Of a stretch of DNA of 38,963 nucleotides, positions 8,623-32,074 are shown in pieces (the stretch's first letter is position 1; every line of letters begins with the position of its first letter). The DNA is from Bryobacter sp. CoA8 C33. Lineage in GTDB: Bacteria; Acidobacteriota; Terriglobia; Bryobacterales; Bryobacteraceae. The DNA lies in assembly GCA_019931185.1 (NCBI GenBank), contig JAINDK010000014.1, forward strand, positions 1-38,963, in the 5' to 3' direction. Below the pieces are notes generated by a model. It was given only the letters and a program-made list of their open reading frames with translations, was not told the DNA's origin and made no database searches. Both the position numbers and the translations under genes were made by a program.

Positions 8623-8627
8623 GAGGA

Positions 8628-11426: not shown

Positions 11427-12161
11427 CTAATGGGTGTTGGGTTGCTGGTTGCCGTTGGTGTTGTTATTGGCGGCGGCGTCCTGATCGCGGCGGGCGAGGT
11501 ATTGGTGGTAGATGAAATAGAGCCGGTCTGGGAGGGGGGCGGTGGTGAGGTCGAAGGAATCGGGGTCGAAGGGTTTGGCTTCGATTTGCGGGGAGGGGGG
11601 AGCGGGTTCGGGGTCGTCGAAGAGTTCCTGGGGGAGAGGGGGGGCGTCGGGGATGGGTTCGAATTGGAGTTGGGGATCGTTGGCGATGAGGGCGTGGCGG
11701 GAGGCGATCTCCTGGCGGAGGAGTTTGGTGGTGCGTTCGATGCGGAGGGGGAGGCGGTGGAGTTCCTGGATGATGGTATTGAGGAAGGGGGCGGGGGAGG
11801 CGAGGATTTGGGAGATGCAGGATTCCATGGCGTGGGAGTAGAGGCGTTCCATTTGGAGGAAGCGGAGTTGGTGGTGGATGAGTTGGTGGAGGAGGGAGAC
11901 CTCGGAGGGGGTGACGGCGTCGAATTGGTGGAGGAAATTCTGGACGACCTCGAAGGCGATCTGGTTATCGTGGACGAAGGTATTGAAATTGGAGAGGGAG
12001 AAGATGCCGTGTTTGAGGGCATTGGAGGCGGCGATGATTTTGCCTTGGGGGGAGCGGGGGCCGGTGGATTTGAGGGCGTTGGCGCGATTGGCGGCGAGGG
12101 CGGCCGGGGACATGGTTTTGGTGCGTTTTTTGGGGGTGGAGTTTTGGTTGAGTGTTTCCAT
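11427..12161 (-). CDS. uncharacterised Acidobacteria-type protein (ANRANA..STGPR family)
   Basis: This is a 244-residue soluble protein. The N-terminus reads ANRANALKSTGPRSPQGK and then SNALKHGIFS, a signature of a large paralogous family common in Acidobacteriota and some Planctomycetes whose function is unknown; the motif resembles short DNA- or nucleic-acid-associated basic segments. Residues 60-160 are helical, with LLHQLIHHQLRFLQMERLYSHAMES, probably a coiled coil. The last 80 residues are rich in Pro, Asp and Asn and likely disordered. The start MET at 12161 is the only one giving the conserved N-terminus. It stands alone on the minus strand at the left border of the BREX island. I infer no function. 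Confidence 0.7.
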   Translation of the reverse strand: METLNQNSTPKKRTKTMSPAALAANRANALKSTGPRSPQGKIIAASNALKHGIFSLSNFNTFVHDNQIAFEVVQNFLHQFDAVTPSEVSLLHQLIHHQLRFLQMERLYSHAMESCISQILASPAPFLNTIIQELHRLPLRIERTTKLLRQEIASRHALIANDPQLQFEPIPDAPPLPQELFDDPEPAPPSPQIEAKPFDPDSFDLTTAPLPDRLYFIYHQYLARRDQDAAANNNTNGNQQPNTH

Positions 12162-12530: not shown

Positions 12531-13361
12531 ATGCAGGATACCAAGCTCAATTTCTTTCCCCAAACGCAGAACCGGGCAGAGGCCATCGCCGCCGGGTTTC
12601 GCTTTGGTCATATCGGCACCCACACCAGCCGGACCATCATGCTCGACGAGTTGGCGACCGTGTTCGCTGCAGTGCCGGCGGATGCCAAGGCGGCGGTTTA
12701 CGTCGACGCGATCGTGGAGGAGAACTGCCTGGCGAAGCAGACTGTGTCCACGCGCCGACTGTCGATGCAGCGCCTTCGGGAGCTATACGCATTGGACCCG
12801 GCGGTGCCGATCTTTCGGATTCTGCGTCGGCTCTGGAATATCGACGAGACGGGCCGGCCCTTGCTGGCCTTCCTTGCCAGCCTCGCACGTGACCCACTCC
12901 TGCTGGCCACCGCAGATGCTGTCATAGGGCTTTCGGAAGGTGCGGAGTTCCAGCGCAATGCCATGCGTGACGCGTTGGCGGCCGCGGTTCACGATCGGCT
13001 CAACGAATCCACTTTGAATAAGGTTGTGCGCAATGCCGCCAGTTCCTGGTCCCAGGCCGGGCACATGGAAGGTCGGACCTTCAAGTTTCGTCGGATCGTG
13101 CGGCCCACGCCGGCCTGCGTAGCCTTCGCTCTTTATCTGGCCCATGCCGCCGGCTTCGCTGTCGAAGAGAGCCTGACGACGGGCTGGCTGAAGGTGCTTG
13201 ACTGCGGACCGTCCGCCGCCCTGGAGCTGGCATTGGGCGCAAAGCGACTGGGTTTGATCGACCTGCGTATGGCCGGGGACGTCATCGACCTGAAGCTGGA
13301 CCGGTTGGATCCCTATTTCGGCGCCGCCACAAAATCTTTGTACACACCGGAGGCGAGGTAA
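12531..13361 (+). CDS. brxA: BREX protein BrxA-like (first gene of the BREX operon)
   Basis: This is a 276-residue soluble, largely helical protein in the position of BrxA, immediately before BrxB. Features consistent with the BrxA (DUF1819) family are VDAIVEENCLAKQTVSTRRLSM, then LRELYALDPAVPIFRILRRLW and LLAFLASLARDPLLLATADAVI. BrxA proteins are small DNA-binding proteins of the BREX core, of unknown enzymatic role, and are usually about 200 residues; this one is longer, with a C-terminal extension after residue 200. The identification rests on gene order and these partial motifs. ATG at 12531 follows a weak AGGATAAG 14 bp away. brxB starts 3 bp after its stop. Codon use is C-rich at third positions, unlike the host genes on either side. 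Confidence 0.65.
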   Translation: MQDTKLNFFPQTQNRAEAIAAGFRFGHIGTHTSRTIMLDELATVFAAVPADAKAAVYVDAIVEENCLAKQTVSTRRLSMQRLRELYALDPAVPIFRILRRLWNIDETGRPLLAFLASLARDPLLLATADAVIGLSEGAEFQRNAMRDALAAAVHDRLNESTLNKVVRNAASSWSQAGHMEGRTFKFRRIVRPTPACVAFALYLAHAAGFAVEESLTTGWLKVLDCGPSAALELALGAKRLGLIDLRMAGDVIDLKLDRLDPYFGAATKSLYTPEAR

Positions 13362-13364
13362 TCC

Positions 13365-13925
13365 ATGGGACGAATTGAACAACTCGCCGAGAAGTACCGC
13401 CAGCACATCGGGCTCCCGTGGCAGCAGACCGTGGCCGGAGCCCAGCGGGTCATCATGGTGGTTTACGACAAGGAACTCGAGCGCTCGTTACAGGCCCGAA
13501 AAGAGCTCTTCGCGATGGCTACGCGGGAGACGGGACACGAGTGGTTTGAGGTTGGAGTCGCCGACTGTTTCGCCGGCTGGATGGCCGCCGAGGAGTATCG
13601 CGACGCCTACTTCGAGTCTCCCGATGATCTTCAACTGAAGCTCGAATCGGAGTTTGCCGAACATGTCGCCACCCGGATTCGCGCCACCTTGAGTAAGCCG
13701 GAAGTGACCAAGAACTCCGTCGTCGCTGTCTTCGGCGTCGGCGCGCTTTTCGGATTCACCCGCGTTTCGCGCGTGCTCAAACTGCTGGAACCCTCCATCC
13801 AGGGCCGGCTCGCCGTTTTCTTTCCCGGCGCCTACGACCAAAACAACTATCGGCTGCTCGACGCGCGCGACGGCTGGAACTATCTCGCGGTGCCAATCAC
13901 GCTTCATTCCGCAGGAGGTTATTGA
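13365..13925 (+). CDS. brxB: BREX protein BrxB
   Basis: This 186-residue protein shows the DUF1788 signature clearly: VVAVFGVGALFGFTRVSRVL, then IQGRLAVFFPGAYDQNNYRLLD and ARDGWNYLAVPI at the C-terminus. The family is a core part of type 1, 5 and 6 BREX and is thought to help assemble the complex around BrxC; its biochemical role is not known. Its length is close to the family norm of about 190-200. It is translationally coupled to brxC: the stop TGA at 13923-13925 shares a base with the brxC ATG (TGATG). Confidence 0.92.
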   Translation: MGRIEQLAEKYRQHIGLPWQQTVAGAQRVIMVVYDKELERSLQARKELFAMATRETGHEWFEVGVADCFAGWMAAEEYRDAYFESPDDLQLKLESEFAEHVATRIRATLSKPEVTKNSVVAVFGVGALFGFTRVSRVLKLLEPSIQGRLAVFFPGAYDQNNYRLLDARDGWNYLAVPITLHSAGGY

Positions 13926-16900
13926 TGTCGATGCTAATTAAGGACACTCTTTTACGCGATCCATCCAAGGAAGGGCTGGTGAACAACGGCCAGGCGCGCA
14001 TCACAAACGAGAGCGCGGACGACAACGTCGCTGCCGCACGAGTGTTGGCGGAACTTCGCGGTGAACTGTCCACGTTCGTTTGCGAAGGGCAGTATGCCGA
14101 GGGCATCATCACCATCCTTTCGTCGTTTCTGGGCAGCCGCAGCCAGACCCACCAGAAGGCTGCCTGGGTTAGCGGCTTCTTCGGCAGCGGCAAGTCGCAC
14201 CTTCTGAAAATGCTTTGCCACCTCTGGTCAGACACAAAGTTCCCAGACGGCGCCACCGCTCGAAGCCTGGTTGCGGAACTGCCGGAAGAGGTGCGCGACC
14301 TGCTGCGCGAACTGGACGTGGCGGGCAAACGCTCCGGCGGGCTGTTGGCCGCCGCCGGGACGCTTCCCGCAGGTACCACCGAAAATGTCCGTCTGAGCGT
14401 TTTCAGCATCCTGCTGCGTGCCTGTGGCCTGCCGACGCAGTATCCACAGGCGCAGTTTCACCTGTGGCTGGAAGAGCGCGGAATCTTAGATCGGGTGAAG
14501 GGTGCAGTGGAAGCGGCCGGAAAGAAGTGGGCCCAGGAATTGAACAACCTCTACGTCAGCCCGCTGATTACCAAGGCGCTCCTCGCCTGTGACGCGAATT
14601 TTGCCACCAGCGAGGGTGCGGCAAGAGAGATCATAAAAGCCCAATTTCCTCTTCGGGTGTCCGATTTGACCACGGAGGAATTCCTTTCGATGTTCAAACG
14701 TGTCCTGCTGCGGGCCGGCAAGGATGGCCAGATGCCCTGTACGATTCTCATCCTTGATGAGGTTCAGCAGTACATTGGCGACTCTGAAACGCGATCCGTG
14801 CTTATTACCGAGATCGCTGAGGCCGTTTCCAAGCAGCTTGATAGCCAGGTGATGTTGGTGGCGGCCGGTCAATCGGCCCTTACCGGCATCAAGCTGCTGA
14901 ACAAGTTACTGGATCGCTTTACAATTCGGATTCAACTCTCGGATGCGGACGTCGAGACGGTCACCCGCAAAGTGCTGCTCCGTAAGCAGCCGACCTCCCT
15001 TACACCCATCGCGGAACTGCTCGACACCCACGCCGGCGAGGTCTCCCGACAGTTGCAGGGCACGAAGATTGGCGAACGCCTCGAAGACAAGGCGATCATC
15101 GTGGAGGACTATCCGCTCCTCCCCGTCCGACGCCGTTTTTGGGAGCATTGCTTCCGCCAGGTCGACACAGCGGGCACCCAAAGCCAGCTACGCTCCCAGT
15201 TGCGAATCATCCATGATTGCGTAGCGAAGCTGACCAGCGAATCGTTGGGTCGCCTGATCCCCGGCGACGACCTTTATGAAGCACTAGCTCCGGAGATGGT
15301 CACCACCGGCGCCCTACCGCGCGAGATCAACGAGCGCATCATCGCCTTGGGCCAGGACGGCGCATCGAAGCGTGGGGGGGAGGGCCGCCTCCAACAGCGC
15401 ATCTGTGGCCTGGTCTTCCTCATTGGCCAGTTGCCGACCGACGGCGCAGCCGACATCGGCGTTCGCGCCACCAAAGAGCACCTGGCGGACCTGCTGGTGG
15501 ATGACCTCGCCGCCGACAACGGCAAGCTGCGTGCCGAGGTCGCGCGCTTGCTCGACAAGCTCGCCGACGAAGGCGTTCTCATGCGCGTCGGCAGCGAGTT
15601 TCGCATCCAGACGGAGGAGGGGCGCAATTGGGATTCTGAGTTCCGCCAACGGGAAGCCAAGCTGAAGAACAACGTCGCGTTCTTCGACGAGCGGCGCGAT
15701 CAACTGCTGGCGGACAAGGTTCAAAAGACGATCGAGAAGGTGAAGGTTCTCCATGGCGCCGCCAAGGTTCCGCGCGAACTCAAGGTTTACCGCTCGCAGG
15801 ACGTTCCGCAGTCTGATGGCGAATCCATCCAAATTTGGCTGCGCGATGGCTTCTCAACTTCCGAAAAGGAGATCCTGAACGCAGCCCGCGCGATCGGCGT
15901 GAACAGCGCCACGCTGTTCGTATTCATTCCCCGGAAGTCGCGCGACGAGTTGTTGAACCTCATTGCAACAGAGCACGCAGCCGAGCAGACGCTAAACGCA
16001 AAGGGCGCGCCGGCCACTCCGGAAGGGCAGGTCGCGCGGCAAAGCATGGAGAGCCGGCACCGTCTGGCGAAGCAGCAACTCGAGGCTTTGGTGTCCGAGA
16101 TCGTCGCTGGCACCAAAGTGTTCCAGGGCGGGGGCAACGAGTTGCTCCAGCTCTCGCTGGACGAAAAGCTGCGCGCCGGCGCGGACGCTTCGTTAGCGCG
16201 CCTCTTTCCCCGATTCAAGGAAGCAGACTTCTCGGGCTCAGCTTGGGAATCGGCGATGAAACGCGCCCGCGATGGAGCGGACCAGCCGTTCTCACCTCTC
16301 AAGTACGAAGGACCTATCGAGCAACATCCCGTCTGCCGACAGGTGCTTTCCGCCATTGGTTCCGGCAAAACGGGTACGCAGCTTCGGAAGGAACTGGAAT
16401 CCAGCCCCTTTGGTTGGCCTCGCGACGCAGTCGATGCCGCGCTGATCGCATTGCACCGCAGCCAGCATGTCACCGCCACCTTGAACGGCGTTGCGGTGGC
16501 CGTCGGTCAGCTCGACCAGAACAAGGTGCCGAAGACCGAGTTCCGGGTGGAGAAGATCACGCTGTCGATCCAGGATCGCAATGCCCTGCGTGCGCTCTAC
16601 CAGGAGGTGGACGTCAAGGCTAAGGGAGACGAACTGGACGCCAAGGCTCCCGAATTCTTCACGGCTCTGCTGAAGCTCTCCTCCGAGGCGGGCGGTGAGG
16701 CGCCCGCACCGGCACGGCCGACCGTAACGGACATCGAAGACATTCGGAAGCTGGTCGGTAATGATCGTTTATCCGCCCTCCGGGCCAAGGAAGCGGACAT
16801 CAAGGCTCGAATTGCCGAGTGGAAAAAGAATCGGGATGGAATCTCGAAGCGAGAGCCGGCATGGCAGGTTCTGGAGCGGCTGGCCAGCCACGCGGGCATA

Positions 16901-17425
16901 CTGCCGGAAGCGCAGCAATCTCTCACCCAGCGGGATGCCATCCGAAGCGGCCGCATGTTGTTGGCTGACCCCGATCCTGTCGCACCGCTCCGCAGCACTT
17001 TGGCCGACTTGCTCCGTCAGGCGCTGATTGCTGCTCAGCAGGCGCAGGAAGCCGCGTACCAGACAGCGTTGGACGGCCTGTCAGCCAATGACACTTGGCA
17101 GAAGCTCTCCCCGGCTGACCAGACGAGAATCTTGGGCGAGGTCGGTCTGCGAGCGCCGGCAAAGCCAGACACCAGCAACGACAACGCACTGCTCTCGGAC
17201 CTGGATGCAATCAGTCTTTCTGCCCGCCGCGCGGAGGCGGAAGCGATCCCGCAGCGAGCCACCAAAGCTGTTCAATCGGCCGCAAAGCTCCTGAAGCCGA
17301 AGACCCAGTTCGTGAAGCTCCAACCCAGTCTGCTGGAGACCGAAGCCGATGTAGACGCCTGGCTGGCAGAGCAGCGCTCCGCAATCCTCAATATGCTTGC
17401 CGCCGGACCAGTGCAGATTCAATAG
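13925..17425 (+). CDS. brxC: BREX ATPase BrxC
   Basis: This 1166-residue P-loop ATPase is the large BREX AAA-type protein. Its Walker A motif is GFFGSGKS (G84-S91) and its Walker B is ILILDEVQQY (D278, E279). Other family features are VSGFFGSGKSHLLKMLCHLW and LVAAGQSALTG after the Walker B region. The middle (about 560-700) holds a charged segment, and the C-terminal third is helical and probably coiled coil. BrxC is essential for BREX defence and methylation and is thought to be a hub for PglX and PglZ. The ATG at 13925 follows AGGAGG (13913-13918) by 6 bp and overlaps the brxB stop; a TTG at 13922 is less likely. pglX follows after 9 bp. Confidence 0.93.
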   Translation: MSMLIKDTLLRDPSKEGLVNNGQARITNESADDNVAAARVLAELRGELSTFVCEGQYAEGIITILSSFLGSRSQTHQKAAWVSGFFGSGKSHLLKMLCHLWSDTKFPDGATARSLVAELPEEVRDLLRELDVAGKRSGGLLAAAGTLPAGTTENVRLSVFSILLRACGLPTQYPQAQFHLWLEERGILDRVKGAVEAAGKKWAQELNNLYVSPLITKALLACDANFATSEGAAREIIKAQFPLRVSDLTTEEFLSMFKRVLLRAGKDGQMPCTILILDEVQQYIGDSETRSVLITEIAEAVSKQLDSQVMLVAAGQSALTGIKLLNKLLDRFTIRIQLSDADVETVTRKVLLRKQPTSLTPIAELLDTHAGEVSRQLQGTKIGERLEDKAIIVEDYPLLPVRRRFWEHCFRQVDTAGTQSQLRSQLRIIHDCVAKLTSESLGRLIPGDDLYEALAPEMVTTGALPREINERIIALGQDGASKRGGEGRLQQRICGLVFLIGQLPTDGAADIGVRATKEHLADLLVDDLAADNGKLRAEVARLLDKLADEGVLMRVGSEFRIQTEEGRNWDSEFRQREAKLKNNVAFFDERRDQLLADKVQKTIEKVKVLHGAAKVPRELKVYRSQDVPQSDGESIQIWLRDGFSTSEKEILNAARAIGVNSATLFVFIPRKSRDELLNLIATEHAAEQTLNAKGAPATPEGQVARQSMESRHRLAKQQLEALVSEIVAGTKVFQGGGNELLQLSLDEKLRAGADASLARLFPRFKEADFSGSAWESAMKRARDGADQPFSPLKYEGPIEQHPVCRQVLSAIGSGKTGTQLRKELESSPFGWPRDAVDAALIALHRSQHVTATLNGVAVAVGQLDQNKVPKTEFRVEKITLSIQDRNALRALYQEVDVKAKGDELDAKAPEFFTALLKLSSEAGGEAPAPARPTVTDIEDIRKLVGNDRLSALRAKEADIKARIAEWKKNRDGISKREPAWQVLERLASHAGILPEAQQSLTQRDAIRSGRMLLADPDPVAPLRSTLADLLRQALIAAQQAQEAAYQTALDGLSANDTWQKLSPADQTRILGEVGLRAPAKPDTSNDNALLSDLDAISLSARRAEAEAIPQRATKAVQSAAKLLKPKTQFVKLQPSLLETEADVDAWLAEQRSAILNMLAAGPVQIQ

Positions 17426-17434
17426 GAGAACGCT

Positions 17435-20400
17435 ATGTCCAGCTTGAACCGAGATCATCGCCGACTCCTGGAGAACACCGTAGCCCAAGCGAGGACCATC
17501 GCGGTAGATGGCGCCCGAAAGGTACTTACGGATCAATATGCCGTTCATCATCATGAACCGTGGCCGCACATGACGGCAGAGCAGCGGGAACTGCGCAACC
17601 AGTTCCGCGCTCATGGCCGTCAACTCGGCGACCGGCGGGACGAGCGCCGAGACACGCAAGAGATCGATCACCTGGTGCAGGCCTGCGCCTATGAGCATTG
17701 GCACCGGATGCTCTTCGCCCGCTTCCTGGCCGAGAACGACTTGCTTTTGGACGCCGATCACGGCATGGCCATGTCGCTCGACGAGGTTCGGGAACTCGCC
17801 CGGGAGCAGAATCGCGACTGGCTGGAAATCGCTGCCGAGCTCGCTCAGAAGATGCTACTCGCCGTTTTCCGGCCAGACGATCCCGTACTGCGAGTTTCGC
17901 TGCCCCCGGAAACACGGCAGGAACTGGAGGCGAAACTCGAGGCTTTGCCGACAGCCGTATTCCGAGCCGACGACAGCCTCGGCTGGGTCTACCAATTCTG
18001 GCAGCGGGATGAAAAGGATCGAGTGAACAAGTCCGAGGTCAAGATCGGAGCGGACGAGCTTCCCGCAGTGACGCAGCTTTTCACTGAGGACTATATGGTC
18101 CTGTTTCTGCTAGAAAACACCCTCGGTGCCTGGTGGGCGGCCAAGCGTGCAGCTGACGGCAATGACCCTTCTTTACCGGGGTACCAGTGGACTTACTTGC
18201 GTCTAAGCAACAACGGCTTGCCCGTGGCAGGATCTTTCGGATTGTGGCCGCGGGCGGCACGCGACATTCGAGTACTTGATCCATGCATGGGCAGTGGACA
18301 CTTCCTAACCTTCGCACTGCGCATTCTTGCTCGGATGCGATCCGAGGAGGAGGGCCTAGATCTTCCCGAGGCAGTTGCGGCGGTTCTGCGGGACAATCTG
18401 TTTGGGCTTGAACTCGACGCACGCTGCTCACAGATCGCGGCCTTCAATCTTGCCCTCGCCTCTTGGCGAGTCGCCGGAAGCCACTTTACGTTACCTGACC
18501 TTAATCTGGCTTGTTCGGGTTTGGGCATCAATGCATCGAAAGAACAATGGATGGCGCTCGCCGGCGAAAACGGCCTTTTACGAGACACGATGGCGGAGCT
18601 ATACACTCTTTTCCGCAAAGCGCCATCACTTGGAAGCCTAATTGATCCTACGCGGGTAGGCAGACCGCTATTGTTTGCGAAGTTTGAACAGGTCTGGCCT
18701 TTGCTACAAGAGGCACTGTCAAGCGAACCGATAGACGATGACTCGCGTGAACTTGCCGTAGCTGCCAAAGGTCTGTTAGCGGCCTCGAGAATGCTTGCCA
18801 GCAAATTCACGCTAGTGGCAACAAACGTCTCTTACTTGGGCCGGGGAAGACAGGATGACGACCTCAAAGCATACTGCGAGGAGTTCTACTCTGATTCCCA
18901 GGCCGACCTGGCGAACTGCTTCGTTGACCGTTGTATTGAATTGTGTACGACTGGCGGAACGTCTGCATTGGTCACCAAGCAAGAGCTGCTATTCCAAGGA
19001 AGTTACATAGATCAGAGAGCGCGGTTAGTTCGCTCCTTCATATGGAATGCAGTAGCCGTATTGGGGCCGCGAGCCTTTGAGACACTTTCGGGTGAACGTG
19101 TAATAGTCTGCCTTCTGATCATGACTTCTCAAAGACCAGCTGCCGGACACGTACTGTCTGGATGGGATGTATCGGCATTGAAATCCGCACTCGCGAAGGG
19201 GGCTGCCCTCACGACATACTGGCACGAGTCGACTGACCAGCTAACGCAGCTAGAAAATCCCGACTCTCGAATACTCCTGTCTTCGGCCAAGAAGTCTGCT
19301 CTTCTCGGAGAGGTCGCTCAATCCTATCAGGGGATCAAAACGGGAGACGACCCTAGGATGAGGAGGTTTTTCTGGGAGATTGAAGAGATTGGCCCGAGGT
19401 GGCGCGCTCTCCAGAGTACGGTCGAGGAGTCTTGTCTGTATGGGGGGAGAGAGAGCGTAATCGATTGGCTTGCTGAAGGAACGGATTGCGCGAGACTACA
19501 GGGTCTCGCTGCACTGGGCCGCACGGGCATTGCGGTCAGCCAGTCGCGAGGACTACCTTGCACAATCTATACAGGCGATTTATTTGACAGCAATGTTGCT
19601 CCCGTGTTGCCGACGCGTGAGGGCAACTTCGATGCCGTCTGGACCTACTGCACGTCTGAGCAGTTTGCCAGCGACATGGTACGAATCGATCCAAAGTTTG
19701 CCGTTGCGAACTCAAGCATTGTCAAGGTTCCGTTTGATCTGGGGCATTGGGTGAGTGTGGCGGCCGATCAATTTCCAGAAGGTCTCCCGCTTCCGCATAG
19801 TGATGATCCTTCGCAATGGTTCTTCGCTGGACACCCGAAAGGTGCGGACCACGCTCTGCAAGTCGCAGTTTCTCGGATGCTGGGCTACCGATGGCCAAGG
19901 CAGAATGGTGCGAGCTTCTTTAACTGCCCGCCTATAGACAGCGATGATCTGGCTGATTATGAGGATCAAGACGGCATAGTGTCTTTGCATGCTATTGCGG
20001 GGGAGGCTTCCGCAGCCGACAGATTGCGCACACTACTTGCCAGTGCATACAAAGATGAGTGGTCCGCAGCCAGGCTTCAAGAACTATTGGGCAAATGGGA
20101 TTCGCTTGGCGAATGGCTTCGGGATGGATTTTTCGAGGAGCATTGCCTTATAATTCAGCACCGCCCGTATATCTGGCACGTGTGGGACGGACGCATAGAT
20201 GGCTTTCACGCCTTCGTGAACTATCACAAGCTTGCGGGGGCCAACGGCGAGGGCCGGCAGACGCTTGAGAAACTGATCTGCACCTATCTTGGCGATTGGG
20301 TCTCGCGACAACAGGCCGACCTAGAGAAGGATGTCGAGGGCGCCGACGGTCGGCTCAGCGCGGCTCTGCACCTAAAGGCAGAACTCGAAAAGGTCCCTAA

Positions 20401-20767
20401 AGGCGAGAAGCCGTACGACGTCTTCGTCCGTTGGAAGGCACTTGCTGAGCAACCCATCGGCTGGGAACCGGATAACAACGATGGTGTACGGCTGAATATC
20501 CGTCCTTGGTTGACTGCCAAACCGTATCAGGCAGGGCGTCGCGACGGCTGCATCCTGCGTATCACTCCCCGTATGAACTACGGGAAAGATCGCGGTAAGG
20601 AACCACACCGACCCAAGGAGGATTTCCCTTGGTTCTGGTCGTGGGACGGGCAATCGGATGACTTCCTCGGCGGCAAAGACTTCGACGGCAGTCGTTGGAA
20701 TGACCTGCACTACTCGCTTGAGACCAAGCAGAAGGCAAGGGAACGCAAGCAAAGGGCGGGAGTATGA
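17435..20767 (+). CDS. pglX: BREX adenine-specific DNA methyltransferase PglX
   Basis: This 1110-residue protein is the N6-adenine methyltransferase that marks host DNA at BREX sites. The SAM-binding motif I is LDPCMGSGHF (D282-F290). The region GLELDARCSQIAAFNLALA is the next motif. Motif IV, normally N-P-P-Y, reads NVSY here (N464-Y467), within TNVSYLGRGRQDDDLKAYC, which otherwise matches the family. FETLSGERVIVCLLIM and ALVTKQELLF follow. The C-terminal 450 residues are the target-recognition part. Base composition changes along the gene: the start is about 62% GC, whereas the segment near 18961-19020 is 47%, as if the recognition part came from another source. ATG at 17435 follows AGGAG by 6 bp. 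Confidence 0.93.
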   Translation: MSSLNRDHRRLLENTVAQARTIAVDGARKVLTDQYAVHHHEPWPHMTAEQRELRNQFRAHGRQLGDRRDERRDTQEIDHLVQACAYEHWHRMLFARFLAENDLLLDADHGMAMSLDEVRELAREQNRDWLEIAAELAQKMLLAVFRPDDPVLRVSLPPETRQELEAKLEALPTAVFRADDSLGWVYQFWQRDEKDRVNKSEVKIGADELPAVTQLFTEDYMVLFLLENTLGAWWAAKRAADGNDPSLPGYQWTYLRLSNNGLPVAGSFGLWPRAARDIRVLDPCMGSGHFLTFALRILARMRSEEEGLDLPEAVAAVLRDNLFGLELDARCSQIAAFNLALASWRVAGSHFTLPDLNLACSGLGINASKEQWMALAGENGLLRDTMAELYTLFRKAPSLGSLIDPTRVGRPLLFAKFEQVWPLLQEALSSEPIDDDSRELAVAAKGLLAASRMLASKFTLVATNVSYLGRGRQDDDLKAYCEEFYSDSQADLANCFVDRCIELCTTGGTSALVTKQELLFQGSYIDQRARLVRSFIWNAVAVLGPRAFETLSGERVIVCLLIMTSQRPAAGHVLSGWDVSALKSALAKGAALTTYWHESTDQLTQLENPDSRILLSSAKKSALLGEVAQSYQGIKTGDDPRMRRFFWEIEEIGPRWRALQSTVEESCLYGGRESVIDWLAEGTDCARLQGLAALGRTGIAVSQSRGLPCTIYTGDLFDSNVAPVLPTREGNFDAVWTYCTSEQFASDMVRIDPKFAVANSSIVKVPFDLGHWVSVAADQFPEGLPLPHSDDPSQWFFAGHPKGADHALQVAVSRMLGYRWPRQNGASFFNCPPIDSDDLADYEDQDGIVSLHAIAGEASAADRLRTLLASAYKDEWSAARLQELLGKWDSLGEWLRDGFFEEHCLIIQHRPYIWHVWDGRIDGFHAFVNYHKLAGANGEGRQTLEKLICTYLGDWVSRQQADLEKDVEGADGRLSAALHLKAELEKVPKGEKPYDVFVRWKALAEQPIGWEPDNNDGVRLNIRPWLTAKPYQAGRRDGCILRITPRMNYGKDRGKEPHRPKEDFPWFWSWDGQSDDFLGGKDFDGSRWNDLHYSLETKQKARERKQRAGV

Positions 20768-21957
20768 GCCAAGAACCGAATCCAGAAGCAACCGTGTCGG
20801 AACGGCAAATCGAGGCGGCGATTCACGACATCCTCTTTTCTAACCGTCACCCATCCGCATGGGAACTCGTTGAGCACCTTGAGGCAGCCTTCGGTTGGCA
20901 ATCCCGCTGGATGATCAAGGACGCAGCCAAAGCGCTCACGAAAGACGGTTCACTCCCGCGCTCGTGTCGGCAGTACTTGGACTCTCTACTCGAAGACGAT
21001 GAACTTGATCAGGCCTTGGCTGGAGCTGAATCACCTAGGAAGGAAGTTCAGTCCGGCATTGACTCCTTGGTGCGGCAAAGCGTCGCCTATCGCACCTCGG
21101 GAGCCTTTCAGGAGATGATCGGGTTCATGGGGCGATTCAAGGACTACGCTCCTTACAACAACATGCTGGTCCGGATTCAGAATCCCAGTTGCTCGTTCTT
21201 TGCAACGGAGAGTGACTGGTTTCGGAGGTTCGAACGGCGGCTCAAAGAGGACGCGCGGCCAATGCTCATCCTCGCGCCGATGCATCCAGTTTTACTGGTT
21301 TACGAGTTGGACCAGACAGAAGGCCCTGACCTTCCCGAAGAACTGAGTAAGTTCGCGACGTTTGCGGGCGACTGGAAGAACGAGTATTTGGAGAAGACGA
21401 TCGAGAATGCCTCCAAGCGAGACCGGATCCGCATCGACGTCAAACGTCTCTCCTCAACAAACGCCGGCTTCGCGACGATTGCCCGGGGCGACAGTGAGTT
21501 CAAGATGCGAATTGCCGTGCACGAGGAACTGGACGCGGCCAGCCGTTACGGCGTGGTGTGCCACGAATTGGCGCACATATACCTTGGGCATCTTGGATGC
21601 GATGAAGATTACTGGTGGCCCAGTCGGACCAATCTGAGCCACCAGACCGTTGAGATTGAAGCTGAAGCGGTGGCGTTTGTGGTGACGGCCCGGCTGGGAT
21701 TACAAGGGGCTAGCGCCCAGTATGTGTCCCGGTATCTTCCGAATGGATCGATACCGCCGTCAGTTTCGCTGGACCTAATTGCCAAGGTCGCTGGGCGGCT
21801 TGAACAGATGGCCCGGCAGGATATGGCGGCACGAATGGAGCGAGGGGAACGTAGGGGAGTGAGGATGAACGGAGCAGGAGCAGGTGGAGCTTTGCCGTCC
21901 AGCGCGGCTGAGGTTTTCGAACAGAATTGGAAAGGGGAAAGCAATGAAAAGTCTTAG
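20764..21957 (+). CDS. ArdC-like / ImmA-IrrE-type zinc metalloprotease
   Basis: This 397-residue protein is inserted in the BREX operon between pglX and pglZ. Residues 1-85 (helical, no known domain) precede a segment with QEMIGFMGRFKDYAPYNNMLVRIQNPS, then ATESDWFRRFERRL and RPMLILAPM, which resembles the N-terminal single-strand DNA-binding domain of ArdC antirestriction proteins. A zinc protease motif follows, HELAH (H267, E268, H271), with a downstream acidic helix EIEAEAVAFVV that could give the third ligand, as in the ImmA/IrrE (DUF955) family. ArdC proteins protect incoming DNA; ImmA cleaves repressors. Which role applies here is unknown. Its start overlaps the pglX stop as ATGA, so it is translated with the operon. 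Confidence 0.8.
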   Translation: MSQEPNPEATVSERQIEAAIHDILFSNRHPSAWELVEHLEAAFGWQSRWMIKDAAKALTKDGSLPRSCRQYLDSLLEDDELDQALAGAESPRKEVQSGIDSLVRQSVAYRTSGAFQEMIGFMGRFKDYAPYNNMLVRIQNPSCSFFATESDWFRRFERRLKEDARPMLILAPMHPVLLVYELDQTEGPDLPEELSKFATFAGDWKNEYLEKTIENASKRDRIRIDVKRLSSTNAGFATIARGDSEFKMRIAVHEELDAASRYGVVCHELAHIYLGHLGCDEDYWWPSRTNLSHQTVEIEAEAVAFVVTARLGLQGASAQYVSRYLPNGSIPPSVSLDLIAKVAGRLEQMARQDMAARMERGERRGVRMNGAGAGGALPSSAAEVFEQNWKGESNEKS

Positions 21958-23146
21958 CGATGAAGAGTTGGAACGATTGAGGGGGGATCTGGAATCGGAC
22001 AGCGTCGAGCGGAAGGAATCGTTGAAGGGGGATGCGCCGACCAAGGTGCGGGAGGCCATTTGCGCATTCGCGAATGACCTTGCGGGTAGAGGAGGCCCTG
22101 GGGTTGTGTTCATTGGATTGCGGGATAACGGTTCGCCCGTACCTGATTTTGCGGTGACTGATGATTTGTTGTTGCAACTGGCGAATATGAAGACGGATGG
22201 GAATATCAGTCCGGTGCCCAGTGTCCTGGTAGAAAAGCGCCGGGTAGGGGGTGCGGAATGCGCAGTACTCAGTGTTTGGCCGTGTGACACGCCACCGGTG
22301 CGGTATCAGGGGCGAATACATATCCGTTGGGGCCCGCGGAGAGGGCTGGCCAGTGCCCAAGACGAGCGGATATTGAATGAGCGCCGGCGTGCTGGAGATC
22401 GGCCCTACGATGTCCGGGGCGTGCGGGGAGCGACGCTTGAAGATCTGGATCTATTGCGATTTGAACAGGAATACTTGCCGGCTCTGGTGGCGCGTGATGT
22501 GCTGGAGGCGAATGAACGAAGTCGGGAACAGCGGCTGACGGCGACCAAAATGCTAGTCAGTGAGGATCCAGCAGTGCCGACGGTATTGGGTTTGATGGTA
22601 ATTGGTAAGTCACCGTCGGACTGGATTCCCGGAGCTTACACACAATTTCTGCGTCTGGCGGGAGTGGAACTAACGGCCGCCGTGGCGGACGAAGCAGTCA
22701 TGCACGGCACCGTGGGGGATCAGATCCGGAGGCTCGAAGAAAAGCTTGAGGCTCACAATTTGCGTGCTGTGCGATTCAGCGATGTGGAGCGGGAGAGGCG
22801 CGAAGCGGAGTACCCGATGGAAGCGCTGCGGCAGCTTGTACGGAATGCTTATATGCACCGAAGCTATGAAGATACCCATACGCCAGTGCGGGTTTACTGG
22901 TTTGACGACCGGATCGAGATTCATAATCCTGGTGGACCCTTTGGTTCGGTGACGCAGGAAAGCTTTGGCCGGCCGGGGGTGACGGACTATCGGAATCCGA
23001 ACCTGGCCGAGGCGATGCGGGCACTCGGCTACGTGCAGCGATTTGGAGCTGGTATTTCGATTGCGCGCAAGGCGCTTGGGGAGAGACTTCGATTTGAAGT
23101 GGAACCAGGGTTCGTGGCCGCAATTGTGCAGGGAGCAAGCAGATGA
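21944..23146 (+). CDS. AlbA_2 (Schlafen-type) protein with GHKL-like ATPase C-terminus
   Basis: This 400-residue protein has an N-terminal AlbA_2 domain (about residues 10-150): ESDSVERKES, AICAFANDLAGRGG, GVVFIGLRDNG and IHIRWGPRRGLASAQDE. A helical middle follows, with an EYLPALVARDVLE motif. From about residue 290 comes a GHKL/HATPase_c_4-type module: EALRQLVRNAYMHRSY (the N-box), RIEIHNPGGPFG, and NPNLAEAMRALGYVQRFGAGI. Proteins with this layout are usually annotated as ATP-binding or putative transcriptional regulators, and related ones occur in phage-defence loci. Substrate and partner are unknown; the next gene (ParA) is a likely partner. ATG at 21944 follows AAAGGGGAAA and overlaps the previous gene by 14 nt; a longer start at 21884 lacks a ribosome site. 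Confidence 0.85.
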   Translation: MKSLSDEELERLRGDLESDSVERKESLKGDAPTKVREAICAFANDLAGRGGPGVVFIGLRDNGSPVPDFAVTDDLLLQLANMKTDGNISPVPSVLVEKRRVGGAECAVLSVWPCDTPPVRYQGRIHIRWGPRRGLASAQDERILNERRRAGDRPYDVRGVRGATLEDLDLLRFEQEYLPALVARDVLEANERSREQRLTATKMLVSEDPAVPTVLGLMVIGKSPSDWIPGAYTQFLRLAGVELTAAVADEAVMHGTVGDQIRRLEEKLEAHNLRAVRFSDVERERREAEYPMEALRQLVRNAYMHRSYEDTHTPVRVYWFDDRIEIHNPGGPFGSVTQESFGRPGVTDYRNPNLAEAMRALGYVQRFGAGISIARKALGERLRFEVEPGFVAAIVQGASR

Positions 23147-24120
23147 TCAGCATTGCGTTTTTCAACAACAAGGGGGGCGTTGGCAAGACGTCGCTGGTGT
23201 ACCACTGTGCCTGGATGTTCGCGGAGTTGGGCCAGCGAGTTTTGGCGGTTGATCTTGATCCGCAATCCAACCTGTCGATTATGGCGCTCGATGAAGAACG
23301 GCTGGAAGCGTTGTGGCCGGACGGTGGTCACCCCGAGACCATGTCTGGAGCAGTTGGCCCACTTTTTGAAGGGACGGGCGACATCCAGCCAGCTCATATT
23401 GAGCTGCTGACGCCGAGTCTGGGGCTATTGGTGGGAGATCTGGCGTTGTCGAGGATTGAAGATGATCTCTCCACGGAATGGCCCCGTTGTCTCGAAGGAA
23501 ACCCGCGGGCGTTTCGGGTGACCACCGCGTTCTGGCGGGTGGTGCAGAGGGCGGCTGAAGACCATGGAGCAGACCTGGTGCTGATTGATGTTGGACCCAA
23601 CCTGGGGGCGATCAATCGAGCCGCATTGGTGGCTTCGAGCCATGTGGTTGTGCCGGTTGCTCCGGACCTGTTTTCGTTGCAGGGGCTAAGGAACTTGGGA
23701 CCTGTGCTGCGCCGGTGGAGGGAGACCTGGAGTAGGGCATTGCCTTCAGCGGTGAGGGCGCTTGGACCCATGCCCCAAGGGGAAATGAAACCAGTGGGAT
23801 ATGTTCTGATGCAGCACGCGGAGCGGCTGGGGAGACCGACGAAGGCGTATGCGAAGTGGCAGGGGAAACTATCGGCGGGATACTACCAGAGCGTACTGGA
23901 TCAGGTAACGGGAGATGTCGTTGCTGATCCGAATCAGATTCAAATGATCAAGCACTATCGAAGCCTCATGCCGATGGCGATGGAGAGGCGGAAACCGATG
24001 TTCCAGCTTACGAGCGCGGATGGGGCGATTGGTGCGCACCAAGCGAATGTACAGCAATGCCGCGTCGATTTTGAGCGGCTGTGCCGTGAGATTGCCAAGA
24101 GGGTTGGGTACGGGATTTGA
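23143..24120 (+). CDS. ParA/Soj-type ATPase
   Basis: This 325-residue MinD/ParA-family ATPase has the deviant Walker A NNKGGVGKTS (K10 signature, K15), then LDPQSNLS (D39), and LIDVGPNLGAINRAAL, the region that contacts the second subunit. SHVVVPVAPDLFSLQGL is a further family motif. It is longer than chromosomal ParA (about 260), with C-terminal extra sequence including AKWQGKLSAGYYQSVLD. ParA-type ATPases form ATP-dependent dimers that bind DNA or a partner. No parB or centromere-like repeat is present, so plasmid partition is unlikely. The gene overlaps the AlbA_2 gene by ATGA and pglZ by TTGA, so it is integral to the operon. G exceeds C on this strand more than in the BREX core (22 G to 12 C at 23641-23700). 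Confidence 0.88.
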   Translation: MISIAFFNNKGGVGKTSLVYHCAWMFAELGQRVLAVDLDPQSNLSIMALDEERLEALWPDGGHPETMSGAVGPLFEGTGDIQPAHIELLTPSLGLLVGDLALSRIEDDLSTEWPRCLEGNPRAFRVTTAFWRVVQRAAEDHGADLVLIDVGPNLGAINRAALVASSHVVVPVAPDLFSLQGLRNLGPVLRRWRETWSRALPSAVRALGPMPQGEMKPVGYVLMQHAERLGRPTKAYAKWQGKLSAGYYQSVLDQVTGDVVADPNQIQMIKHYRSLMPMAMERRKPMFQLTSADGAIGAHQANVQQCRVDFERLCREIAKRVGYGI

Positions 24121-26459
24121 ACTTGAAGAACGAATCACAGACCTTAGTGGGTGAGATTTGCGCGTCATTGGCGGCAGTCGCACGAACGGCGGATGGTTTT
24201 GCCGCGCCCATTGCGGTGCTCTGGACGGATGTGGAAGCACAGTGGCTGCCACTGATGCCCGTGTTACGCGCCATTCTGCCAAATCTGTTTCAGATGGGCC
24301 GTTATGAAGCGAGCGTACGCACGGGGCCGGCAATCTGGCTGAAATGCATTGTGGATCGGACACTGCCGGAGGCGCCACCTGCTGGCGAGGTACCAGTGCT
24401 CTATCTGCCACGCGTGAGCCGTCAGGAACTCCGCGCGGCCGGCGACTGCCCGCCGGCACTGCAGCCTCTAGTCGAACTCCAGTTCCGCGGGCGGGTCTGG
24501 CACCAATCGAATGGGCACGATTGGACGGTGCGGGCCTTCCTTGTTTCCGATGAGGGGCTTGGACTGGACGTAGCGGCTGATCGGCGGACCGAAGATGCAT
24601 TCCTCCGCGTATTGCCCATTCTTGCCGAAACCGACGCGCGCACATTGAAGGGCCGCCGCTTGGACGCTGACGACTTCGACAAGCTCTCCGTGCAGGATCC
24701 TGTCCGGGACCTCTTGTTGTGGCTCAACAATGCAGAGGCGTTCGAGGCAACGGCAAAAGGCAGCCGTTGGGAGTCTTTCCGGGGCCTCTGTCAGTCGGAG
24801 TTCCGCTTCGATCCGGATCGAGTGCCGGCGGCTGAGGTCGCAGGTCTGCTGATTCGTGCGGAGTTGGGTCTGGACCGAGTATGGAACCGCTTCGCCGAGT
24901 CTCCGCAGCTCTATCCCGGCGTCGCCAAGTTGCTGAGAGAGCCGGCGGGGGCGGGCCAGGGGCTCCTGGTACTCGATCCTTCCCGCGATCCCCGCATCAA
25001 CGAGCGTGACGAGGCGGAGCTTCGCCAGGACCTTCAAACGGCAGCCGGTCTCCCCCACGCACAGGCGTGCACGAAAGTTCTGGAGTTGGAAGGAAGGCAC
25101 GCCGTTCGCCGCGACTGGGCGTGGTCCCGGACCGAAATGAGCCCCTGGGCACTGGCCCTTCGCCCTTTGGCGCGCCTGGCGCAAGCGGCGCGGAAGCCGG
25201 TGGGAGGAGCGACTCTGTCGGCCGCCGCCGCCGAGTATGCGACAAGTGGATGGGAATGCGATGCCGCCGCCATGGAGGCGTTGGGACGATTCCGGAACGG
25301 ACCGGATGCCGCGCTTGTGGTGAAAGTGGTTCGCGCGCTCTACGAGCCGTGGCTGGACGGCTCCGCTCGGCATTTTCAGGCTTTGGTGGCAAAGGAGCCG
25401 AACGAGGCGCGAAAGGGCGTTTTCCAGCCCGCCGCTGAGAAGGACACTTGCCTTTTGTTCGTGGATGGCTTGCGGTTTGACTTGGCCGGCAAACTGGCCG
25501 CCCGACTCGAAGCGCGCGGGTTTCGCGTGTCGATGACGCATCGGCTGGCTCCGCTGCCAACGGTGACGCCGACGGCGAAGCTTGCAGCCACTCCACTCAC
25601 GGACGGAATCAAGGGTGGAAGCGGCGATGACTTCACGCCGCTGATCCAGGCGAAGTCCGGTTGGAAGCCTGTTGTTGCGCCGCTCTTGCGCGAGCGGTTG
25701 GAGGGGACCGGCGTCGAGCTTCTGGACGCGAATGAAACGCGGATTCCATCGGGCGGCGAAGGTGGCGGGTGGACCGAGTGTGGCAACGTCGACAGCCTGG
25801 GCCACAGTCTCCAAGGAGATCTGGTCCACCAATTGGATGTGGAAGTGGATCGTATCGCCGACCGGGCTTTCAGCCTGGTTGATTCCGGCTGGCGCCGAGT
25901 GCGTGTCGTCACGGATCATGGTTGGCTGCTGCTGCCGGGCGGCCTACCGAAAGTCGAGCTCGCGCCCTATCTTGCGGAAACCAAGTGGGCCCGCTGCGCT
26001 TTGGTGAAGGGCCAGCCGGACCTGAATGTTCCCGTCAGTTCCTGGCACTGGAATGCCGAAGTCAAGATCGCATCGCCACCGGGAATCGGAGCCTTCCGTG
26101 CCGGCGAGACCTACGCGCACGGCGGTATCAGTCCGCAGGAATGTGTCGTCCCGGAATTGATCGTGGAGCGTGGGGCAAGCGCGATCCATGCATCGATCCA
26201 GTCGGTCGAATGGCGCGGCATGCGGTGCCGTGTGCGGGTGGATTCGAATGAGCCGAAAGTGCGCGTGGATTTGCGCAAGAACTGGAAACAGGAATCGACC
26301 AGCATCGCCGCCGCGACGAAAGAGGTTGGACCGGCCGGCGAAGTGAGCCTGGCGGTGCCGGATGACGAGCACGAGGGCGTGGCGGCCTTTGTGGTGCTGC
26401 TTGACCCCGAGGGCAAAGTGATCGCGAGCCAAACCACGTGCGTAGGAGAACGGGCATGA
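24117..26459 (+). CDS. pglZ: BREX phosphatase-like protein PglZ
   Basis: This is a 780-residue protein of the alkaline phosphatase superfamily, PglZ type. The metal-site region is LLFVDGLRFDLAGKL (D450), followed by MTHRLAPLPTVTPTAKL and later VTDHGWLLLPGGLPK (the second metal-site region), and a typical C-terminal beta domain with GGISPQECVVPELIV. In BREX it is essential and is thought to be a nuclease or phosphatase acting with PglX. There is no ATG near the N-terminus; translation most likely starts at TTG 24117 (overlapping the ParA stop as TTTGA) or TTG 24123. The two starts differ by two residues. The stop overlaps the brxL start as ATGA. It is of the size of type B PglZ. Confidence 0.9.
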   Translation: MNLKNESQTLVGEICASLAAVARTADGFAAPIAVLWTDVEAQWLPLMPVLRAILPNLFQMGRYEASVRTGPAIWLKCIVDRTLPEAPPAGEVPVLYLPRVSRQELRAAGDCPPALQPLVELQFRGRVWHQSNGHDWTVRAFLVSDEGLGLDVAADRRTEDAFLRVLPILAETDARTLKGRRLDADDFDKLSVQDPVRDLLLWLNNAEAFEATAKGSRWESFRGLCQSEFRFDPDRVPAAEVAGLLIRAELGLDRVWNRFAESPQLYPGVAKLLREPAGAGQGLLVLDPSRDPRINERDEAELRQDLQTAAGLPHAQACTKVLELEGRHAVRRDWAWSRTEMSPWALALRPLARLAQAARKPVGGATLSAAAAEYATSGWECDAAAMEALGRFRNGPDAALVVKVVRALYEPWLDGSARHFQALVAKEPNEARKGVFQPAAEKDTCLLFVDGLRFDLAGKLAARLEARGFRVSMTHRLAPLPTVTPTAKLAATPLTDGIKGGSGDDFTPLIQAKSGWKPVVAPLLRERLEGTGVELLDANETRIPSGGEGGGWTECGNVDSLGHSLQGDLVHQLDVEVDRIADRAFSLVDSGWRRVRVVTDHGWLLLPGGLPKVELAPYLAETKWARCALVKGQPDLNVPVSSWHWNAEVKIASPPGIGAFRAGETYAHGGISPQECVVPELIVERGASAIHASIQSVEWRGMRCRVRVDSNEPKVRVDLRKNWKQESTSIAAATKEVGPAGEVSLAVPDDEHEGVAAFVVLLDPEGKVIASQTTCVGERA

Positions 26460-28525
26460 ATGTGGACCCTTCTAGGATGACAATGGACAACTTGGACAAA
26501 CTGGCCGCAACGGCCTTCGATGGTTACCTGGTTCGGAAGGATCTCGTTCGGAAATACTCGCGCCAATACCCGGTGCCGACCTACGTGGTGGAGTTTCTTC
26601 TTGGGCGGTACTGCGCCAGCGTGGATGAACAGGAGATCCAGGAAGGACTGGCGATCGTGGAGAAACAGCTTCGCGATCGCACCGTACGAACCGGCGAAGA
26701 GGAACTGTTCAAGGCGCGTGCGAGGGAACAGGGCTCCGTCAAACTGATCGACCTTGTTAAGGCTCGCCTGGACACGCGGAACGACTGCTACGTGGCGGAA
26801 CTGCCCAGCATTTCCCAAAGAGACGTCCGGATCGCGGATGAACTTGTGCGCGAGAACGAGCGAATGCTCACTGACGGCTTCTATGCCGAGGTCACGCTCT
26901 CTTATGACGCGATTGTGGCGCAGGAAAACAGCGGACGGCCTTTTGCCATCGACTCTTTACGCCCCATCCAGATGTCCAAGTCAGACGCGGTCGAGGTTCT
27001 GGCTCGGGGACGGACGAAGTTCACAACGCAGGAGTGGATCGATCTTCTGCTACGTTCCATCGGTCTGGAGGCGGGGAATCTGGATGAACGGGCGAAACGG
27101 GTCGCGCTGCTGCGGATGGTCCCGTTCGTGGAGCGGAACTACAACTTCGTGGAGCTTGGACCTCGGGGGACCGGGAAAAGCCATCTCTTCCAGCAGATCT
27201 CCCCGTACTCGCACCTGATCTCTGGTGGCAAAGCGACCGTCGCGAAGATGTTCGTCAACAATGCTTCCGGCCAGCGCGGTCTCGTCTGCCAATATGACGT
27301 GGTCTGCTTTGACGAGGTGTCCGGAATCTCCTTCGACCAGAAGGACGGCGTGAACATCATGAAGGGCTACATGGCCTCTGGCCAGTTCAGCCGAGGCAAA
27401 GAGAATATTCGCGCCGACGGCAGTCTGGTGATGGTGGGCAACTTCGATGTGGACGTCGAACAGCAGCAGAGGATCGGACACCTGTTGAGCCCGATGCCTC
27501 TGGAGATGCGCAACGACACCGCGTTCATGGATCGGCTCCATTCCTTCGCGCCAGGATGGGATTTTCCCAAGCTCAAGGCGAGCGATCACCTGACCGATCA
27601 CTTTGGATTGGTGAGCGACTTCCTGAGCGAGTGCTGGAACAAGCTCAGGTCTGGTAGCCGGGTCAACGTCATGCAGGGGCGTGTCTACCTCGGCGGCGCA
27701 CTGAGCGGACGTGACATCGAAGCGGTCAACAAGACCGTGAGCGGGCTGATCAAGCTTCTGTTCCCCGCGCCGGAAATGGGCGTCTCCGACGAAGACCTGG
27801 AGTGGATCGTGCGCATGGCGCTTGAGGGCCGACGGCGTGTAAAGGAGCAGCAAAAGCGGGTTTTCAAAAGCGAGTTTCGGAACACGCACTTCTCCTATAC
27901 GATGGGCGCCGAGGGCGTGGAACAGTTTGTCTCCACGCCCGAATTACACAGCGACGAAGCGATTGAGAGCGACCCGTTGCCGCCAGGACAAGTTTGGGCG
28001 GTGAGCATGGGCTCGCCCGAGGCCGGCGCCGGCCTGTACCGGCTGGAGGTCACGTCCGGGCCAGGCGGTGGGGTAAAGATCCTGAACCAGCCGCCACCGG
28101 CATCGTTCAAGGAAAGTGTCCGGATCGGCGAGCAGAACCTCTACTCGCGGGCGAAGGAGCTGGTGGGCGATCGCGACCCGCGTGAGCATGAGTTCTCCAT
28201 CCAGATGCGTGCGATGGACGCCGACAAGGCGGGCGCCGGGCTTGGGTTGCCGGTATTGGTTGCGCTCTGCGGGTCGCTCCTGGGCAAGAACACCCGCGGC
28301 GGAACGATTGTGGTGGGCGCCCTGAACCTTGGCGGCTCGATTGACATCATCCCGAACGCGATCCAGATCGCCGAACTCGCGATCGACAAGCAGGCCCAGA
28401 CCCTGCTGATGCCCGTGGCCGCGCGCCGGCAACTGAACGATCTGCCAGACGACCTCTGGACCCGCATCAGCATTGAGTTCTACAAAGATGCCGCGGACGC
28501 GGTGTTCAAGGCTCTGGTGGAGTAG
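26456..28525 (+). CDS. brxL: BREX Lon-like AAA protein BrxL
   Basis: This is a 689-residue protein with an N-terminal helical domain (LDKLAATAFDGYLVRKDLVR), an AAA ATPase domain with Walker A GPRGTGKSHLF (K241), a Walker B-like YDVVCFDEVSGI, and NFDVDVEQQQRIGHLLSP, which is typical of BrxL. The C-terminal 190 residues resemble a Lon protease domain (MDADKAGAGLGLPVLVALCGSLLG and GALNLGGSIDIIPNAIQIAELAI), but the nucleophile position usually filled by Ser in Lon lies in AGAGLG, with no Ser, so proteolysis is doubtful. BrxL forms ring assemblies on DNA and is needed for phage restriction. ATG at 26456 follows AGGAG (26444-26448) and overlaps pglZ. The next gene starts 2 bp after its stop. Confidence 0.92.
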   Translation: MNVDPSRMTMDNLDKLAATAFDGYLVRKDLVRKYSRQYPVPTYVVEFLLGRYCASVDEQEIQEGLAIVEKQLRDRTVRTGEEELFKARAREQGSVKLIDLVKARLDTRNDCYVAELPSISQRDVRIADELVRENERMLTDGFYAEVTLSYDAIVAQENSGRPFAIDSLRPIQMSKSDAVEVLARGRTKFTTQEWIDLLLRSIGLEAGNLDERAKRVALLRMVPFVERNYNFVELGPRGTGKSHLFQQISPYSHLISGGKATVAKMFVNNASGQRGLVCQYDVVCFDEVSGISFDQKDGVNIMKGYMASGQFSRGKENIRADGSLVMVGNFDVDVEQQQRIGHLLSPMPLEMRNDTAFMDRLHSFAPGWDFPKLKASDHLTDHFGLVSDFLSECWNKLRSGSRVNVMQGRVYLGGALSGRDIEAVNKTVSGLIKLLFPAPEMGVSDEDLEWIVRMALEGRRRVKEQQKRVFKSEFRNTHFSYTMGAEGVEQFVSTPELHSDEAIESDPLPPGQVWAVSMGSPEAGAGLYRLEVTSGPGGGVKILNQPPPASFKESVRIGEQNLYSRAKELVGDRDPREHEFSIQMRAMDADKAGAGLGLPVLVALCGSLLGKNTRGGTIVVGALNLGGSIDIIPNAIQIAELAIDKQAQTLLMPVAARRQLNDLPDDLWTRISIEFYKDAADAVFKALVE

Positions 28526-30535: not shown

Positions 30536-30582
30536 GTGCGGGCGCGGGTGTGTAGCTTAGCGATATGATGCAGGGGACGAGT

Positions 30583-32067: not shown

Positions 32068-32074
32068 CGGAGGG

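Follow-up and report, generated by a model that had tools for sequence, protein, structure and literature searches.

A type 1 BREX operon with three additional genes

We analysed a 38,963-nucleotide stretch of DNA from Bryobacter sp. CoA8 C33 (Acidobacteriota; contig JAINDK010000014.1), referred to here as the window, which carries a bacteriophage exclusion (BREX) operon with a ParA-type ATPase gene among its members. Nine genes, all on the forward strand, occupy positions 12531–28525. The core order brxA-brxB-brxC-pglX-pglZ-brxL is interrupted between pglX and pglZ by genes for a metalloprotease, an AlbA_2/Schlafen-GHKL protein (hereafter AlbA) and the ParA protein. The gene order and the three-gene insertion had been proposed in an earlier interpretation made without database searches (the sequence-only reading), and both were borne out by PADLOC and Pfam.

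Upstream of the insertion lie brxA (12531–13361; PADLOC BrxA, 4e-90), brxB (13365–13925; PADLOC BrxB, 2.5e-76, and Pfam BrxB), the ATPase gene brxC (13922–17425; PADLOC BrxC, E = 0; NCBIfam BREX_BrxC passed with 759 bits) and the methyltransferase gene pglX (17435–20767; PADLOC PglX, E = 0). Downstream of it, pglZ (24117–26459; PADLOC PglZ, 2.7e-264) scored 825 bits against NCBIfam PglZ_1_B (cut-off 400), a family named ‘BREX-1 system phosphatase PglZ type B’, and brxL (26456–28525; PADLOC BrxL, 7e-296) passed the NCBIfam cut-off of 628.25 with 629.8 bits. The brxL open reading frame opens with GTG at 26438, and the ATG at 26456 fits an ATGA overlap with pglZ. The locus is a complete type 1 BREX operon with a PglZ of type B. 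Its nearest named relative, in an Acidobacteriia metagenome-assembled genome (L087), has brxC and brxL genes 75% and 88% identical to those of the window.

The window PglX remained below the NCBIfam BREX_1_MTaseX cut-off (278 versus 500 bits). Its motif I is intact; motif IV (18824–18835, residues 464–467) is NVSY and not NPPY. In all 18 distinct PglX relatives of the same branch (19 rows, two of which represent one gene) the motif is NVPY or NVPF, and NPPY is given for a characterised PglX in a section of PMC11341690. That protein comes from Salmonella. Because the PADLOC PglX model is matched, we read the window PglX as belonging to a divergent branch, and base the type 1 assignment on the gene set together with PglZ and BrxL.

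Within the insertion, the protease gene (20764–21957) overlaps pglX by 4 nt (ATGA) and the AlbA gene (21944–23146, from the ATG at 21944) by 14 nt. The junctions of AlbA with ParA (23143–24120), ParA with pglZ and pglZ with brxL read ATGA, TTGA and ATGA respectively, so that the overlaps described between pglX and brxL, five in total, were confirmed from the sequence. Elsewhere in the operon, brxB and brxC overlap by 4 nt, and gaps are found instead at brxA/brxB (3 nt) and brxC/pglX (9 nt). The sequence-only reading had taken the overlaps to make a random insertion unlikely. Overlaps are no distinguishing feature, however, since they also occur around unrelated cargo that other BREX loci carry at this junction (L065, L239 and L241; longest open reading frames). 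Flanking genes on the same contig also overlap when the longest open reading frames are taken (32075–34489/34486 and 36900/36884). Gene overlap is thus ordinary packing here and by itself no proof that the three genes form one machine. Between 20400 and 24600 there was no sigma-70 promoter-like site, compared with a mean of 1.6 in shuffled sequences, which is consistent with co-transcription, although the indication is weak.

The GC skew, calculated over 2-kb intervals, is 0.40–0.53 at 7–13 kb and 0.36–0.50 from 29 kb onward, and falls to between −0.01 and 0.23 at 12–29 kb. This departure from the flanks suggests a horizontally acquired island. Both flanks (6000–12000 and 29000–38000, skew up to 0.53) carry forward-strand genes, and the BREX island loses the skew despite its genes lying on the same strand. 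Low values (0.05–0.22) also occur at 1–6 kb, where the genes are on the other strand. In the two genomes of the same family that were searched, brxC had no match, and the matches to three flanking genes fell on different contigs or far apart, so that no empty insertion site could be recognized there.

The pglX–pglZ junction is a cargo slot

The distance between pglX and pglZ was taken in 19 BREX loci, comprising the window, 12 others of the phylum, four plasmid records and two loci found via the protease; G207 (in which a contig edge cuts brxC), seven weak brxC matches and three of the seven plasmid brxC matches (H25, H28 and H29) were left out of the count. Leaving aside the window and the two protease-derived loci, 12 of 16 hold 1.1–12.9 kb at this junction, one holds about 0.7 kb, and in three the genes stand back to back. 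Ten cargo proteins were submitted to Pfam. They include Fic (L056), AAA_21/SMC-like ATPases (L058, L239 and L242), AIPR (L064), DUF932 and GmrSD (L065), AlbA and/or GHKL domains (L241 and L242) and a protein with no match (L059). According to its record annotation, L066 carries an HNH protein, DarT, an IS3 transposase and an HsdR-N protein. The largest cargo, 12.9 kb (L242, 2428–15367), contains several AlbA/GHKL genes.

The slot has an occupant in Salmonella LT2 that we take to be PARIS (phage anti-restriction-induced system). That occupant, a pair formed by an ATPase and a DUF4435 protein, lies at the pglX–pglZ junction, and its removal leaves methylation unaffected, as described in part of PMC9009780. 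The junction is an exchange slot in this BREX branch, and for one pair this was already visible in print.

The trio was found in none of the 18 other BREX loci, and neither was a ParA of the window's subfamily. The protease occurs in two of them, both picked because they carry it, and a divergent AlbA in seven (six by tblastn at 23–30% identity, L241 by Pfam). Occurrence outside BREX or at many unrelated positions, which the sequence-only reading had named as refuting its view, applies to the parts of the trio. A fixed trio was rejected, since the parts recur apart and no second trio was present in the loci examined. An identity with Menshen was also rejected, because Menshen consists of a DUF262 gene and a predicted OLD nuclease, as set out in a portion of PMC10952713.

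A ParA subfamily with exchangeable effector partners

ParA-type ATPases are DNA- and cargo-positioning proteins. The window ParA (AAA_31, 8e-27) has an intact Walker A motif, KGGVGKT. When a profile of its subfamily was searched in 396 genomes of the phylum, 14 matches in 13 genomes were obtained at E ≤ 1.8e-69, and the next followed at 4.6e-31. From there on, matches cover only the first ~200 positions; the one exception is the remaining end of the G246 gene, which a contig edge interrupts. In a tree built from 25 subfamily members and three ordinary ParA (two rows being long), the subfamily was separated from ordinary ParA with support of 100/100. Given the score gap and this split, the protein does not belong with the canonical partition proteins (Soj/ParA), and a reading as a plasmid ParABS system was dropped on the same grounds.

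An effector gene adjoins ParA in all 14 copies of the phylum. The partner is a Schlafen-GHKL protein in 11 of these, the window included, a RelA/SpoT protein in two and a SIR2 protein in one; AlbA_2-GHKL genes lie upstream of ParA, and the RelA_SpoT and SIR2_2 genes downstream. Two of the 11 AlbA genes (G273 and G168) are degraded by stop codons. Partners were called by Pfam for the SIR2 protein of L086 and the RelA protein of L084, and by tblastn for L085 and for the paired AlbA other than that of the window. As a control, 17 ordinary ParA loci were examined with flanks of ~1.5 kb on either side (less in one case). At E 1e-3 none of them matched AlbA, SIR2 or RelA; one short chance match was to a different query. 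In the tree, the AlbA-linked (100/99) and SIR2-linked (96/93) members form clades, and the three RelA-linked members form no single group.

The linkage extends to plasmids. Subfamily ParA was found in 17 of 72,556 plasmid records (E ≤ 1e-20). Among the ten that were opened, SIR2 was present in six and RelA in one, and no partner was seen in three. A reciprocal search with SIR2 alone returned 12 plasmid records, of which the eight best (E ≤ 2e-45) are the ParA-adjacent ones; the four weaker records (one at E 4e-14, the others from 6e-14 to 5e-12) are absent from the ParA list. A RelA search returned five plasmid records, with full cover only in the query's own. The Salmonella ParA–SIR2 DNA had no match in E. 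coli genomes, the SIR2 protein none in phages, and AlbA none in plasmids at E 1e-20. Literature searches, mostly of titles and the beginnings of abstracts, returned no description of ParA with Schlafen, SIR2 or RelA proteins or of their swapping, which does not prove absence.

Two further features of the subfamily were observed. Temperate phages (ST160, Pf1 and a Helicobacter prophage; loci L188, L189 and L190) carry members with no effector seen, and KGGVSKT replaces KGGVGKT in ST160, the Helicobacter prophage and two Pantoea plasmids. In both ParA–RelA loci of the phylum a 186-residue protein precedes ParA (L084, 10208–10768, and L085, 10130–10690, both on the reverse strand; 66% identity). 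That of L084 has no Pfam match, and the protein may be a third component of these loci.

The AlbA–ParA pair

The window AlbA combines a Schlafen-type domain (SLFN_AlbA_2, 2e-9) with a C-terminal GHKL ATPase-like domain (HATPase_c_4, 4e-15; both run on the longer open reading frame from 21884) and is a candidate RNase effector. Neither E17 nor E22 varies in any of the 16 proteins aligned, a set that includes AlbA without ParA. The spacing of its acidic residues resembles that of the Schlafen nuclease SLFN13. In PADLOC, residues 164–392 of the longer frame (21884–23146) gave 48 bits to a SIR2/PNTD model filed with prokaryotic Argonaute.

The pair recurs in ten other loci of the phylum. Over the 8–20 kb read, the 13 other ParA loci, these ten included, showed no core gene of the window's BREX type. 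In L079 the pair is flanked by a DUF1156 methyltransferase on one side and a DUF499 ATPase on the other, both described as parts of BREX-related systems in a section of PMC12839542. The window AlbA clusters with ParA-paired AlbA (100/100) and apart from the eight BREX-slot AlbA that were compared; since it belongs to the ParA-paired lineage, joint acquisition of AlbA and ParA is most likely. The suggestion in the sequence-only reading of a nested defence system therefore finds support for AlbA plus ParA, a pair that recurs outside BREX, and does not extend to the full trio.

The metalloprotease

The protease is a predicted zincin (HELAH...GH...E) with an SprT/IrrE-like catalytic domain and a helical N-terminal domain. 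The HELAH-type HExxH motif, the GH and an ExEAE stretch are all invariant in alignments of its family. Pfam SprT-like and M78 matches were weak and below the curated cut-offs. The AlphaFold model has a pLDDT (predicted local distance difference test) of 89, and among the PDB matches listed the SPRTN protease domain had the top probability (6mdx, 0.82). Comparison with viral fold models gave one uncharacterised siphovirus protein at E 1.8e-4 and several SprT/IrrE proteins weakly. ArdC was not seen among the matches in Pfam, PADLOC, NCBIfam, PDB or viral fold comparisons, and the protease pattern had no match in viral contigs.

The analysis covered the best 80 of 314 confirmed relatives in the genome collection, 13 of these 80 being 47–61% identical. 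The protease stands alone after pglX in L090, follows pglX together with an AlbA of another lineage in L087, and follows brxL of a more distant BREX in L166. Among the 80 loci, of which 19 hold less than 12 kb, subfamily ParA was beside the protease in none and AlbA only in L087; conversely, the 13 other loci of the phylum with subfamily ParA all lacked the protease. Other neighbours among the 80 include N6 methyltransferases, GmrSD, DUF499 proteins and helicases. A relative in a Haematobacter plasmid (L031, 9971–10819) has an N-6 DNA methylase on one side and a large DEAD/DEAH helicase on the other, and one in a Cupriavidus plasmid lies between a transposase and metabolic genes. The protease may be a recurrent, non-exclusive accessory of methyltransferase-centred defence that perhaps cleaves a regulator, a weak conclusion.

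Origin and possible role of the inserted genes

On balance, we favour the view that the BREX slot took up two independent units, a protease gene and an effector-swapping AlbA–ParA module that is regulated by ParA and probably acts by abortive infection in the manner of PARIS. The first unit, a single zincin gene, is also present downstream of pglX in further BREX loci and next to restriction-type systems of other kinds. The second, a Schlafen-type GHKL protein with ParA, is one form of a family in which the same ParA stands beside Schlafen-GHKL, SIR2 or RelA/SpoT proteins. ParA, a candidate sensor or regulator, would keep the effector off or sense infection, perhaps by recognising foreign DNA or an anti-restriction protein made by a phage. 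By analogy with PARIS, it could sense a failure of BREX and release AlbA, and the freed effector might cut tRNA or other RNA, so that growth would stop when BREX fails. The protease might cleave a regulator or inhibitor and in this way tune BREX, although we offer this step with less assurance.

Several observations count against this view. The putative RNase activity of AlbA is deduced from the domain match and E17/E22, and the third acidic position, D61 in the window protein, is N in L221 and L223. AlbA was detected at E ≤ 1e-40 in nine of the 297 genomes searched, of which only six have subfamily ParA (G184, G275 and G254 do not). Conversely, no effector was seen beside the subfamily ParA of L033, L169, L170, phages ST160 and Pf1 and the Helicobacter prophage, where another role is possible. 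The pair does not need BREX, its ten other loci showing none of these core genes in the 8–20 kb read. As to the protease, its model has no significant PDB match (none below E 0.1), and its neighbours among the best 80 of 314 are mixed. In a scan of same-strand neighbours of 150–1500 residues within 1.5 kb (other loci and the downstream neighbour of L158 being omitted), the commonest Pfam families reached at most four of 65 upstream and five of 57 downstream.

A rival view is that the trio acts as a single co-selected machine, as the sequence-only reading suggested, or belongs integrally to this subtype of BREX. The overlapping junctions, the lack of a promoter-like site within the trio and the position of the protease directly after pglX, shared by the window with L087 and L090, all fit this view. 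We nevertheless think it improbable, given that none of the 18 other BREX loci has the trio, that the protease and AlbA–ParA recur separately and that equivalent overlaps surround unrelated cargo. A similarly low probability attaches to AlbA being the transcriptional regulator of the operon, with ParA as co-regulator and the protease clearing the regulator. Nucleic-acid binding is possible for AlbA_2 domains, and repressors are cleaved by proteases of the M78 type, as in ImmA/ImmR and IrrE/DdrO. However, E17 and E22 are invariant in all 16 aligned proteins, although AlbA without ParA are among these, and partner exchange with SIR2 and RelA/SpoT proteins is more readily explained by an effector role than by a regulatory one.

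The AlbA–ParA, ParA–SIR2 and ParA–RelA pairs might instead be addiction or element-maintenance modules, in which ParA serves as antitoxin or partition protein and no phage trigger is involved. The ParA fold, the occurrence on plasmids and the temperate phages without a visible effector agree with this, and all three effector types are typical toxins. In a Vibrio ponticus plasmid, however, a ParA–ParB pair is annotated besides the ParA–SIR2 pair, so that partition does not require the latter. Moreover, the window pair is nested in BREX, the L079 pair lies inside a BREX-related system and the subfamily is far from Soj/ParA. We regard maintenance as unlikely and retain two independent units with a ParA-regulated effector as the preferred explanation.

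More tentatively, these loci may represent an immune family in which one ParA-type ATPase is the infection sensor or guard for exchangeable effectors (a Schlafen RNase, a SIR2 NADase, or a RelA/SpoT alarmone synthetase or tRNA pyrophosphokinase), nested here in BREX with a protease and trapping phages that block BREX. A ParA subfamily travelling with unrelated, potentially toxic enzymes would constitute a new class of sensor in bacterial immunity, and one ATPase with three effectors offers a testable set. The pglX–pglZ slot, where backup modules may be exchanged, could help explain the differing phage range among BREX loci.

Comparison with known systems

The toxSAS (toxic small alarmone synthetase) and SIR2 abortive-infection effectors resemble the swapped partners with their RelA_SpoT and SIR2_2 domains; the antitoxins and sensors of those systems are not known to be ParA-type ATPases. 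The protease shares the HEXXH...E core of the ArdC/ImmA/IrrE/SprT zincins, with weak SprT-like, M78 and viral IrrE/SprT matches, but appears to form a family apart, marked by a helical N-terminal domain of its own.

A Schlafen domain with a C-terminal kinase-like ATPase domain has been reported in BREX loci from at least 1017 taxa (PMC12839542), and the window AlbA is of the same build. A ParA partner, swapping with SIR2 or RelA and a nested protease are not mentioned in the sections of that report available to us, and the window AlbA lineage is separate from the eight BREX-slot AlbA compared. Whereas Schlafen proteins in BREX were already on record, the ParA partner and the swapping of effectors appear to be new, in what would be an ATPase-plus-toxic-effector backup module nested in BREX.

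The nearest parallel is PARIS, whose ATPase responds to an anti-restriction protein by activating a tRNase, and which has been proposed to be a backup effector in part of the same report (PMC12839542). Both are two-gene modules of an ATPase and a potentially toxic nuclease, which in the window is a putative one, and the ATPase–DUF4435 pair of LT2 StySA occupies the same pglX–pglZ slot in the portion of PMC9009780 that describes it. PARIS combines an OLD-ABC protein (AriA) with a TOPRIM/DUF4435 protein (AriB), whereas the window has a ParA-type ATPase and a Schlafen-GHKL protein. The window module is therefore not PARIS, but it may work alike.

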